NCBI RefSeq assembly: GCF_002979435.1
Contig: NZ_PCOV01000006.1
Location: 1-64,000, forward strand
Direction of reading: 5' to 3'
DNA from: Microbacterium sp. MYb66
GTDB taxonomy: Bacteria; Actinomycetota; Actinomycetes; Actinomycetales; Microbacteriaceae
DNA: 64,000 nt
The translations under genes and the position numbers were made by a program. The notes under the pieces were generated by a model. It saw nothing but the letters and a program-made list of their open reading frames with translations. It had not been told where the DNA came from and searched no databases. Positions 8,469 through 11,741 of this stretch are shown piece by piece. How positions within the stretch are numbered: the stretch's first letter is position 1; the number at the start of each line of letters is the position of its first letter.

Positions 8469-9062
8469 TCAGCCCATGCCCCGCGCCGCCAACGCATCGC
8501 CGATGTCGTCCGCGTGCCGCAGCGCGAGCACGAGCAGCGGGACCACCGCCTGCACGCCCAACCGCACGCCGCGGGCCTGCTCGGCCTCTCGCACGCGATC
8601 GGCGAAACCGGCGATCACCGGGACGGCGGTGATCGTCAGCGAGACCGTTAACGCGACTGCGTCCGGATCGAGTCCGAAGCGTCGGAGCAGACTCAGCAGG
8701 CGGTGCAGCACCGCGAGGAGATCCGCCATCCGCGTGGTGAAGGTCAGCAGGCTCGCCAGCAGGAGCACAGCCACGACGCGTCCCGTGCTGACCCACGCGG
8801 CGACCGGAGACACGAAGACCAGGAGAGCGGTCGCGAGCACGACGATGATCCAGCGCAGGCGCCAGATCTCGAGGAACGGTGCCCGAAGCGGCAGCCCAGC
8901 GACGCCGTAGAGCGCCAGAATCACCAGCAGCGACACAGCGATGCTCACCGGGTCGTGCGGGTAGACGGACAGCACGAGCGCGCCGACGGCCAGGGACGCG
9001 AGCTTGAGTCCGGCAGGAGCGCGGTGAAGCATCCCGGTTCCCGCGCGGTACAGGGCGATCAT
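8469..9062 (-). CDS. bioN: ECF transporter transmembrane component, BioN-like (CbiQ family)
   Basis: The 197-residue product has about five membrane helices and the CbiQ/EcfT coupling motifs near the C-terminus (ADRVREAEQARGVRL and the later ADDIGDALAARGMG). These short Ala-Arg-Gly motifs bind the ATPase. It overlaps bioM by four bases. With BioM it would power biotin uptake with a BioY substrate-binding subunit, which is not in this window. The biotin assignment comes mainly from the regulator site upstream of bioM. Confidence 0.8.
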   Translation of the reverse strand: MIALYRAGTGMLHRAPAGLKLASLAVGALVLSVYPHDPVSIAVSLLVILALYGVAGLPLRAPFLEIWRLRWIIVVLATALLVFVSPVAAWVSTGRVVAVLLLASLLTFTTRMADLLAVLHRLLSLLRRFGLDPDAVALTVSLTITAVPVIAGFADRVREAEQARGVRLGVQAVVPLLVLALRHADDIGDALAARGMG

Positions 9063-9757
9063 GCGCAGGCCTGGCGATACGTCTCGATCACGGTCGACGG
9101 TTCACCGGAGGCGGAGATCCGGCCATCCTCGAACAGGATGGCGGTCTCGCACCTCGCAGCCAGCCCGAGATCGTGCGTCACCAGCACGAGTTGGGCCGGC
9201 TGCGCGAGGAGCAGATCACCGATGCGACGGGAGTTGTGCAGGTCGAGGAGCGTCGTCGGCTCGTCCGCCACGATCACTTGCGGACCGGTGACCATCACCG
9301 AAGCCAGCGCGAGCATCTGCTTCTGCCCGCCCGAGAGACTCGAAGCGGGCACGTCGGCGTGGTCGGCCAGCCCGTGCGCCTCCAGCGTCAGCCGCACGCG
9401 CTCGATCACTTCCGCTTTCGGCCGGCCCCGCAGCGACAGCGCGAGGTCCTCCGCGGGGGTGGGCATCAGGATCTGCGCATCGGGGTTGGTGAACACGAAG
9501 CCCACGCGCTTGCGCACTGCCCCTCGGTCTCGCACGGTGTCGAGGCCGTGCACCGACACCGTGCCGCTGCTGGGCGCGACGAGTCCGTTCAGGAGCCGCG
9601 CGAAGGTCGACTTTCCCGAGCCGTTGGCTCCGATCACCGCGATGCTCCGAGCGGTCAGGTCCACCGTCACATCGTCCAGCACCGGCCGGCCGTCGAACTG
9701 CACCCCCACCCGGTCGAGGGAGATGGGTGCGTGTACGACGCCGACCGACGGTGCCAT
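9059..9757 (-). CDS. bioM: ECF transporter ATPase, BioM-like (CbiO family)
   Basis: The 232-residue product has Walker A GANGSGKST, a Q-loop in VGFVFTNPDAQILMPT (with Asn where many ABC proteins have Gln), signature SLSGGQKQMLALA, Walker B VIVADEPTTLLD and a switch His in LVTHDLG. The ATG at 9757 is chosen because GAGGGAG precedes it and the ABC fold begins soon after; longer forms would run into the promoter and operators. A single ATPase gene means it probably works as a homodimer. The gene is divergent from the TetR gene, with two shared palindromes between them. Confidence 0.85.
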   Translation of the reverse strand: MAPSVGVVHAPISLDRVGVQFDGRPVLDDVTVDLTARSIAVIGANGSGKSTFARLLNGLVAPSSGTVSVHGLDTVRDRGAVRKRVGFVFTNPDAQILMPTPAEDLALSLRGRPKAEVIERVRLTLEAHGLADHADVPASSLSGGQKQMLALASVMVTGPQVIVADEPTTLLDLHNSRRIGDLLLAQPAQLVLVTHDLGLAARCETAILFEDGRISASGEPSTVIETYRQACA

Positions 9758-9782
9758 GCGGACTCCCTCGGGACGACTGACC

Positions 9783-9795
9783 TGAACACTGTTCA
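9783..9795. promoter_or_regulatory. BioQ-type operator 1, TGAACnnnGTTCA
   Basis: TGAACACTGTTCA is a perfect 5-bp inverted repeat with a 3-base centre. It lies within the bioM leader and near the -35 region of the TetR gene. From memory, actinobacterial BioQ regulators of biotin genes bind a 13-bp TGAAC-N3-GTT type site. Confidence 0.75.
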
Positions 9796-9797
9796 CC

Positions 9798-9810
9798 TGA
9801 ACGTCGTTCA
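9798..9810. promoter_or_regulatory. BioQ-type operator 2, TGAACnnnGTTCA
   Basis: TGAACGTCGTTCA is a second perfect copy, two bases after operator 1 and touching the divergent -10 boxes. The centre-to-centre spacing is 15 bp, so two dimers would sit on rotated faces. Confidence 0.75.
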
Positions 9811-9817
9811 CTATAAT
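9810..9817. promoter_or_regulatory. Overlapping divergent -10 boxes of the TetR gene and bioM
   Basis: On the plus strand TATAAT at 9812-9817 is followed by six bases and the ATG at 9824, so the TetR mRNA is predicted leaderless. On the minus strand TATAGT covers 9815 to 9810 and would start bioM transcription near 9803, inside operator 2. Bound repressor would block both. Confidence 0.65.
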
Positions 9818-9823
9818 CGGAGG

Positions 9824-10408
9824 ATGAGTCCAGAGCACAATCCGGTACGCCATGACCGAGACAGCGTCGCCCGGAGTGCGCTCGCCCTGCTCGATGAAGT
9901 GGGCCTCGCCGATCTCTCCATGCGTCGCATCGCCGCCCGACTGGACGTTCAACCCAGCGCCCTGTATTGGCACTTCGCGAGCAAGCAGGAGCTCCTCGCC
10001 GACCTCGCGGACAGGATCACCGCCTCCGTCCCGGAGGGCAGCAGTGGTGTCCTGGCGACCGCACGGGCGATCCGCGACGCGCTCTTCGCCTATCGCGACG
10101 GCGCAGAGCTCGTCCTCAGCACCTATGCTCTCCAACTCGGTTCAGCGCATGCGCAGTCGGTTCTCACTGAGGCGCTGCGGGCGCAGAATGCCGTCGACCC
10201 CGAGGATCGCGGTGCAGCGATCCTGCACTTCGTCCTCGGACACGCCACGCTCGTGCAGCAGCGCATGCACGCCGACAGTCACGGAGCGCTTCCGAGCACC
10301 GCCGAAGTCGACGTGACGGCAGGACTCGATCGCGTCTTCGATCTCGGGGTGACCGCTCTCGCGGGCGAACTCACCGCTCCGACGACTCCGCCGCGTGCCC
10401 GAGCCTGA
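9824..10408 (+). CDS. bioQ: TetR-family repressor, probable BioQ
   Basis: The 194-residue product has an N-terminal TetR helix-turn-helix (LSMRRIAARLDVQPSALYWHFASKQELL, given here as its key stretch RIAARLDVQPSALYWHF) and a C-terminal helical TetR_C ligand domain. The ATG is fixed by the TATAAT box six bases upstream. Divergence from bioM and two TGAACnnnGTTCA palindromes between them match the BioQ biotin-gene repressor of actinobacteria. BioQ usually senses biotin status through the biotin ligase rather than by binding biotin. The last 38 bases overlap the convergent MFS gene. Confidence 0.75.
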   Translation: MSPEHNPVRHDRDSVARSALALLDEVGLADLSMRRIAARLDVQPSALYWHFASKQELLADLADRITASVPEGSSGVLATARAIRDALFAYRDGAELVLSTYALQLGSAHAQSVLTEALRAQNAVDPEDRGAAILHFVLGHATLVQQRMHADSHGALPSTAEVDVTAGLDRVFDLGVTALAGELTAPTTPPRARA

Positions 10409-11741
10409 GGCCCGGTACCACAGCGAGCACGACAAGCCCGACGCAGAACGCGAACACCGCTCCGAATGCCCCGGCCTCACCGCCGAGGGATGCCACCCCG
10501 AGACCGGCCAGGGCGATGGCGACAGCCGCTCCCGTGGAATCGGAGATCGAGAGCGCTGATGAGTTGAACCCCTGGTTCGTGACATCCGAGTAGGCGAGCG
10601 TCAAGACCGTCAGCCGCGGATAGAGCAGCCCCATACCGCCACCCGCGAAAGCCCAACCCCACACGACCACGACCGGCGAGACGTCGAAGACCGCGGCGGC
10701 GAGCACGCACAGCATCGCGATCAGGAGCGAGCCGAGACTGATCAGGGTGATGCGGTGATTCCCCAGGCGTTCACCGAATCGCCCCTGCAACGCGGAAGCT
10801 CCGGCCCAGGCCAGGGCCGCGAGCATCAGTGCGATCCCCGCCCACGTCGCGGTGAAGTCGAACTTCCTCATCAGCAGATAGGGGATGTAGGCCTCTGCGG
10901 CGAAGAACGCCCCTGCCACGATGCCGCGCATGAGCACGACGCTCGGCAGTCCCGCTCCCGCCCGCAGTGTGCGTCGCGGGAGCAGCGGCAGCACAGCGAA
11001 GCCGATCGCCACGACCGCGCCGAGCGCGACCGGCCAGCCGATCACCGGCTCCAAGTCCGCCGAGAATCCGATCACGACCGCGAGCACCGCCACGACGACC
11101 GCGAGAAGGAGGCGCATGATCAGCGCACGCCGGTCCTGGGGCTCTCCTCGGCCCAGATCGACTCCTCGGAGCCGCACCGCGATCGTCAGGAAGGCTACCG
11201 CCGTGAGCACGGCGACTCCGAGGAAAGCCCAGCGCCAGTCGAGGTACTCGGCCACGGCGCCGGCGAGGAACGGGCCGACCATGGACGGCACCACCCACGC
11301 TGCCGCGAACGCCGCGAAGATCCGCCCGTGCAGCTGCGGCGGATACAGCCTCGCCACGACGACATAGAGCGCGACGGTCTGCCCACCTGTACCCAGCCCC
11401 TGCACCAGCCGCCCGATCAGGAACTGGTGCATCGTCACCGCGAAGCCGGAGATCAGCAGGCCGACGATGAAGAGCGTCACGGCCACGTACAAGGCGCCGC
11501 GGGGTCCGCGCGCATCCGACCACGCTCCCGTCGCGACCATGCCGATCACGCTCGTCGCGAGGGTGCCTGCGAAGGCGACGGCGAACAGCGCCTCGCCATC
11601 GAGAGCTTCGCTGACGATCGGCATGACGGTCGTCACTGCGAGGGCCTCGATCGCCGCGAGGAAGATCAGTGCGACCGCGCCGAGGGTGACCCAGAGGCGT
11701 TGGCGATCCCAGATCGTCGGGGCGGTCGCCGATGAGGTCAT
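10371..11741 (-). CDS. MFS transporter (drug exporter type)
   Basis: The 456-residue product has 12-14 membrane segments. The early acidic/hydrophobic segment is AIEALAVTTVMPIVSEAL, and the loop 2-3 motif is SDARGPRGALYVA, a variant of the MFS signature. The later motif RLVQGLGTGGQTVALYVV resembles drug:H+ antiporters of the DHA families. The substrate is unknown. Its start overlaps the stop of the MalY gene by four bases, so the two are co-expressed. Its 3' end runs 38 bases into the end of the convergent TetR gene, leaving no room for a terminator. Confidence 0.85.
   Translation of the reverse strand: MTSSATAPTIWDRQRLWVTLGAVALIFLAAIEALAVTTVMPIVSEALDGEALFAVAFAGTLATSVIGMVATGAWSDARGPRGALYVAVTLFIVGLLISGFAVTMHQFLIGRLVQGLGTGGQTVALYVVVARLYPPQLHGRIFAAFAAAWVVPSMVGPFLAGAVAEYLDWRWAFLGVAVLTAVAFLTIAVRLRGVDLGRGEPQDRRALIMRLLLAVVVAVLAVVIGFSADLEPVIGWPVALGAVVAIGFAVLPLLPRRTLRAGAGLPSVVLMRGIVAGAFFAAEAYIPYLLMRKFDFTATWAGIALMLAALAWAGASALQGRFGERLGNHRITLISLGSLLIAMLCVLAAAVFDVSPVVVVWGWAFAGGGMGLLYPRLTVLTLAYSDVTNQGFNSSALSISDSTGAAVAIALAGLGVASLGGEAGAFGAVFAFCVGLVVLAVVPGLRLGHAAESSER

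Follow-up and report, generated by a model that had tools for sequence, protein, structure and literature searches.

The intergenic region between bioM and a divergent TetR-family gene in Microbacterium sp. MYb66 is very probably where a BioQ regulon for biotin uptake is controlled. It carries two adjacent BioQ-type palindromes, and the only other such pair in the genome lies at the unlinked bioY. The window, as we call the whole stretch analysed, comprises 64,000 nucleotides (positions 1 to 64,000 of contig NZ_PCOV01000006.1), and the following features in it bear on this reading.

8469..9062, minus strand: bioN, transmembrane (T) component of an ECF importer, 197 aa, overlapping bioM by 4 bp; Pfam CbiQ
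9059..9757, minus strand: bioM, ATPase of the ECF importer, 232 aa, ATG start
9763..9769, minus strand: GAGGGAG, Shine-Dalgarno sequence of bioM
9783..9795, strand not assigned: operator 1, TGAACACTGTTCA, exact palindrome; the same pair is conserved in the genus
9798..9810, strand not assigned: operator 2, TGAACGTCGTTCA, exact palindrome, 2 bp from operator 1
9810..9815, minus strand: TATAGT, by sequence a -10 box of bioMN and presumably used as such; [C/G]TATANT in 39 of 45 loci
9812..9817, plus strand: TATAAT, -10 box of the TetR (bioQ) gene; TANNNT at the same place in 44 of 45 genus loci
9824..10408, plus strand: TetR-family gene, bioQ-like, 194 aa, with its start codon at the expected mRNA start

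Read from bioM (minus strand) to the TetR gene (plus strand), the order is TGAACACTGTTCA-CC-TGAACGTCGTTCA-C-TATAAT-CGGAGG-ATG. A preliminary description of this DNA had reported two perfect TGAACnnnGTTCA sites 15 bp apart in this intergenic region, and that is what we find, the 15 bp being measured from start to start and the gap being 2 bp. Exact sites occur within the window only at 9783 and 9798. The genome-wide search that the same description had proposed led to bioY: the 3.88-Mb genome (99.8% complete) contains exactly four exact TGAACnnnGTTCA sites, arranged as two pairs that both have a gap of 2 bp. The second pair (C12:293006-293033) ends 13 bp upstream of the ATG of the single detected bioY, and no further exact sites were found in the genome beyond these two pairs. 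Chance expectations per genome, taken from an order-3 Markov model of the window, are about 2.2 for the exact single site and 1.3e-6 for the gap-2 pair, so the excess lies in the pairing rather than in the site itself; single exact sites mean little, and pairs mean much. With one mismatch allowed, the genome holds 33 places beyond the four exact sites; a control pattern gave 4.

The regulator had been called BioQ-like, and comparison with solved proteins supports this by sequence and by structure. The best sequence matches are 5yej, 5xs9 and 5yek (E about 1e-23), all three titled as M. smegmatis BioQ and one of them including the natural operator. The same three entries rank best by fold when compared with the predicted model of the TetR protein (pLDDT 91.3, pTM 0.86), with Z scores of 20.1-21.5 and 36-37% identity, and the next entry has a Z of 18.6; this comparison is a re-examination of Foldseek matches and not an independent search. 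K54 of the window's TetR protein aligns with K47 of M. smegmatis BioQ and is invariant in 41 aligned proteins, two of which come from L071 and L081. Lysine is common at this position in TetR proteins, so the match is not diagnostic of BioQ. K47 itself is reported to be acetylated (PMC6800001). The same locus is present in Microbacterium maritypicum, where the TetR protein is 85% identical. A second TetR in the MYb66 genome (G000:C4:26265-26645) shows 42% identity to that of the window over 120 residues (E 1.5e-16).

Downstream of the TetR gene, and convergent to it, lies an MFS exporter gene (10371-11741, minus strand) that overlaps its 3' end by 38 bp. In relatives, MFS matches are again found next to the TetR gene or bioY, even at loci without the TetR gene (L213, L215), and in MYb66 a further MFS gene, 41% identical, precedes the distant bioY on its upstream side (L005:5531-6931).

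BioN scores 50.6 bits for Pfam CbiQ against a cut-off of 25. BioM has ECF_ATPase_1 as its best NCBIfam match (E 2.6e-48), yet reaches 165 bits where the cut-off is 315; its Pfam ABC_tran match is above cut-off. The unlinked BioY, 192 aa in length, is the only BioY match of the genome (Pfam BioY, 119 bits against a cut-off of 25), and no NCBIfam match to it was found at 1e-10. The preliminary description was correct that bioY is absent beside the ECF module, and the location of bioY at another locus, with an operator pair of its own, explains this. Its suggestion that the module is biotin-related is likewise supported, both by the exact pair at bioY and by the bioYMN linkage seen in relatives. 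Across the genus, the pair lies between a TetR gene and bioY at 37 of 57 places, and bioM is found in the same stretch at 31 of those 37, so the bioM-bioN pair of the window reads as the remainder of a bioYMN operon. The identification of biotin as the probable substrate rests on this linkage to bioY in relatives. BioM and BioN would thus go with the unlinked BioY, to which the common operator ties them, and the identity of a seemingly orphan ECF pair is settled.

A search of the genome for bioB found none: the sole biotin synthase match scores 40 bits against a cut-off of 225, and we rejected this candidate, whose frame reads as lipoyl synthase. On these grounds the last step of biotin synthesis seems to be missing, and the strain is predicted to need external biotin. 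One biotin ligase was found, and a reading of its frame leaves no evident room for an N-terminal DNA-binding domain before the catalytic match.

The genus at large shows how strictly the operator is kept. An exact tandem pair is present in 48 of 79 genomes, with gaps of only 1 and 2 bp even though 0-6 bp were allowed; among the 57 exact tandem places the gap is 2 bp at 48 and 1 bp at eight, and one is a triple with gaps of 2 and 2. Every one of the 57 abuts bioY and a TetR gene (37), bioY alone (12) or bioM and a TetR gene (8). Triple operators, with three exact sites in a row at the same 1-2 bp gaps, were seen at L133 (G071), L165, L170, L171 and L186. At L195 (G035:C1:3200000-3204000), an exact pair with a gap of 1 bp (sites at 1799 and 1813) stands upstream of a second, distant BioY (37% identity).

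Regulator and sites go together across the 79 genomes. Each of the 48 genomes that carry an exact pair also has a TetR match, beside the pair in 45 and elsewhere in three (G026, G040, G041), and of the 31 genomes lacking an exact pair, 28 have no TetR match at E 1e-10. (Thresholds differ between the two sets, tblastn at 1e-5 being used in loci and 1e-10 in genomes.) The three exceptions, with a TetR match at 1e-10 and no exact pair, are G078, in which an exact and a one-mismatch site lie 15 bp apart beside the TetR gene (L216); G046, with a partial, weak match in a genome that is 81% complete; and G018, with a weak match of 33% identity that is perhaps a paralogue. Three genomes (G036, G069, G076) have bioYMN, with BioY 75-78% identical, and no TetR match, and no exact site was found in the stretch examined around their bioYMN. 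One of these loci (L215) retains a one-mismatch site beside a -10-like sequence; at the other two a similar -10-like sequence remains and the operator is gone. Such loss of the operator is expected if a TetR of the window's type reads the sites.

In the clade to which the window belongs, bioMN lies at the TetR operator and bioY is elsewhere with a pair of its own. Both pairs are present in eight genomes of the genus (G000, G002, G005, G023, G029, G060, G066 and G077); in a further one, G040, the bioY pair is exact and the pair at the TetR locus has one mismatch. A tree of 52 TetR proteins, picked for spread among those extracted, needs one change to account for the move of bioY (48/53; 42% of bootstrap trees), within a 100/99 clade of 12. 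These values lend weak support to a single relocation of bioY, with which the tree is compatible. Two loci, L128 and L154, yielded no usable TetR frame and are absent from the extracted TetR proteins; both are inside the 45-locus promoter counts given below.

On the TetR side, 44 of 45 genus loci have TANNNT 1-2 bp beyond the operator, and in 39 of 45 the earliest ATG or GTG is found at offset 13 or 14 from it. In the window the TetR gene starts 13 bp from the pair; its -10 hexamer ends 6 nt before the ATG at 9824, which GGAGG abuts with zero spacing. The start codon thus coincides with the expected +1, from which we infer that the TetR mRNA is leaderless. The earlier claim that the plus-strand TATAAT (9812-9817) and the minus-strand TATAGT (9815-9810) have bases in common holds as a statement about sequence, the common bases being TATA at 9812-9815. 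In 39 of 45 genus loci the element takes the form [C/G]TATANT, which together with the final A of the operator makes a second -10 box on the opposite strand. The minus-strand start for bioMN is predicted at 9803-9804, within operator 2, giving bioM a leader of about 46 nt and the divergent promoters a start-to-start distance of 20-21 bp.

It is the start codon of bioM, which the preliminary description had placed within operator 2, that does not stand. The ATG at 9757 has GAGGGAG 5 nt upstream of it, and among 10 related bioM-type loci the frame that crosses the operators lacks conservation, with stops in four (L187, L192, L029, L232); a start inside operator 2 is therefore rejected. This misplaced codon is the sole wrong detail in an observation that is confirmed in part, and the interpretation drawn from it is supported overall.

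Whether the overlapping boxes serve in both directions is a separate matter. The operator might be real and the common -10 region no working two-way promoter, with bioMN transcribed from another promoter and the minus-strand box a mere by-product of the plus-strand one. At a spacing of 1 bp, a plus-strand TATA placed after the last A of the operator gives TATA[G/C]T on the minus strand automatically; moreover, both divergent start sites are predictions from sequence, and [C/G]TATANT is absent in six of the 45 genus loci. We nevertheless regard this as unlikely, given that the inner T and A of the TATA are kept at 41 and 40 of 45 loci, that relatives lacking bioQ retain a -10-like sequence here when the operator is gone, and that the one-directional bioY promoters of the window's clade differ. 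These nine promoters carry sequences such as TACTCT and TATTCT at 2 nt before the operator, and a TATA box is absent at the matching place. The contrast suggests that the symmetric core is retained for use in both directions.

Other readings concern what the regulator controls. The TetR protein could sense a drug or metabolite and regulate the neighbouring MFS exporter, with the ECF genes as bystanders: the MFS gene is convergent to it in the window, an MFS match of at least 40% identity occurs in 12 of the 37 stretches with bioY and a TetR gene, and the best NCBIfam name for the protein is tetracycline repressor. That match, however, has 79.9 bits where the cut-off is 265, the start of the MFS gene (11741) has no exact site, at 57 of 57 places it is bioY, bioM or the TetR gene that the pair faces, and the two genomes that lack bioQ and keep an MFS gene beside bioY (L213, L215) have no sites. 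We consider this reading highly improbable. We give as little credence to the idea that a motif common to unrelated regulators has been over-read and that another TetR of the genome is its true reader. The core is indeed found with other TetR-like genes in other phyla, and the genome does encode the related second TetR described above, yet the co-occurrence of TetR and pair in the genus (48 of 48, and 28 of 31 for joint absence) and the position of the window's own TetR gene so close to the pair both speak against it. The reading of the locus as a BioQ control point stands on a combination, namely the pair, a BioQ-like TetR and bioY or bioMN.

On its own the motif cannot establish a biotin role, because pairs also adjoin a non-biotin gene in Streptomyces and other TetR-like genes in Alphaproteobacteria; we therefore rejected it as sufficient proof. 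In two Streptomyces (L025:2102-2129, L054:3070-3097), a gap-2 TGAACnnnGTTCA pair lies between a TetR gene and a divergent gene for a rifampin-monooxygenase-like FAD enzyme, so that the same kind of operator apparently serves a non-biotin gene there. A scan of genome contigs for pairs returned at least 119 stretches, 80 of them named. Among the matches listed, pairs occur at many spacings, the commonest being gaps of 10 (at least 31) and 9 (at least 13), and the named matches with these two gaps, among those listed, are mainly from Alphaproteobacteria. A TetR-like protein was read beside the sites in five of six gap-9 or gap-10 loci inspected. In the alphaproteobacterial loci L033, L045, L024, L080 and L050, TGAACnnnGTTCA repeats recur at a constant gap of 10 bp next to a TetR-like gene of another kind. 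A third copy often follows about 21-22 bp on, and some of these loci have a divergent gene whose product starts MFxxLxTL.

Beyond the genus, a TetR match at 1e-15 was found in 35 of 150 genomes sampled from the family. We examined the best 30 of 36 family matches; among these, all 30 loci have an exact site, 29 have a pair that is exact or has a single mismatch in one of its sites, and bioY is present at 28. At the level of the order, an exact pair at gaps of 0-8 bp is present in 15 of 149 genomes. The 11 loci outside the family comprise six with a TetR gene and bioY, two with a TetR gene only and three with neither, one of which (L239) has its pair at bioB. Pairs adjoin bioB in four loci (L071 from Mycolicibacterium neoaurum, L007 from Rhodococcus, L239 and L102); that of M. 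neoaurum has a gap of 4 bp and lies between bioB and a TetR gene.

We propose a model in which BioQ, a TetR-family repressor, would bind as dimers to the two adjacent 13-bp palindromes, a 28-bp operator in all. The pair covers the region upstream of bioQ's own -10 box and the predicted start region of the divergent bioMN promoter, and a single occupied pair could close both directions because the bioMN -10 box has its TATA in common with the bioQ box. The second pair lies over the start region of the promoter of the distant bioY and would block that gene, so that BioM, BioN and BioY could be repressed together even though bioY is unlinked. When biotin is scarce, the repressor would presumably release the DNA and uptake would rise. 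Occupation by two dimers is a guess from other TetR proteins, since BioQ of C. glutamicum is described on single 13-bp sites.

For the Microbacteriaceae more broadly, we lean towards a history in which BioQ dimers act in a fixed pair on a double operator of 28 bp, locking a true two-way promoter whose one TATA core serves both a leaderless repressor gene and an importer operon. bioY would then have moved in one clade, where it kept or regained such an operator at a new one-way promoter; in lineages that lost bioQ, the operators would have decayed and a promoter remained. The presence, relocation and loss of BioQ, with matching gain and loss of operators, offer a natural data set on how a TetR protein shuts a two-way promoter.

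Control by BioQ is already known; what is distinctive here is the strict tandem operator, the shared -10 region and the unlinked bioY. Our literature search returned no paper on BioQ in Microbacterium or on BioQ operators in tandem; the primary BioQ papers and RegPrecise, outside its scope, may describe tandem sites. The system resembles the BioQ regulons of C. glutamicum and M. smegmatis, insofar as our sources describe them, in that the TetR protein is nearest to solved M. smegmatis BioQ, TGAAC-N3-GTTCA lies at biotin genes, and the importer is of the bioYMN type. Upstream of bio genes, TGAAC-N3-GTTCA is the site predicted for BioQ (PMC3398298). BioYMN of C. glutamicum takes up biotin, and its mRNAs rise under biotin limitation, 18.8-fold for bioY, 4.9-fold for bioM and 2.0-fold for bioN (PMC3398298). 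The present system differs in having two sites at a fixed gap of 1-2 bp, where for C. glutamicum BioQ one 13-bp site is described (PMC9210681), and in a detected regulon that consists of uptake genes only, with bioY unlinked from bioMN.

The length of the operator is close to that of QacR, CgmR and RolR, whose operators of 28-32 bp are described as occupied by a pair of dimers (PMC9210681), as may be the case here. REP1 of RolR is given as TGAAC-N4-GTTCA in the same source. Unlike in these systems, each half of the present operator is a complete 13-bp BioQ-type palindrome. The promoter in turn recalls acrA/acrR of E. coli, described as a bidirectional promoter with a symmetric -10 in which one gene encodes a TetR auto-repressor (PMC12825309); here too, as far as sequence can tell, one -10 region may serve divergent genes, one of which would encode a TetR auto-repressor. 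The preferred start-to-start distances reported for symmetric -10 promoters are 18, 10 and 23 bp (PMC12825309), from which the predicted spacing of the bioMN and bioQ starts departs.
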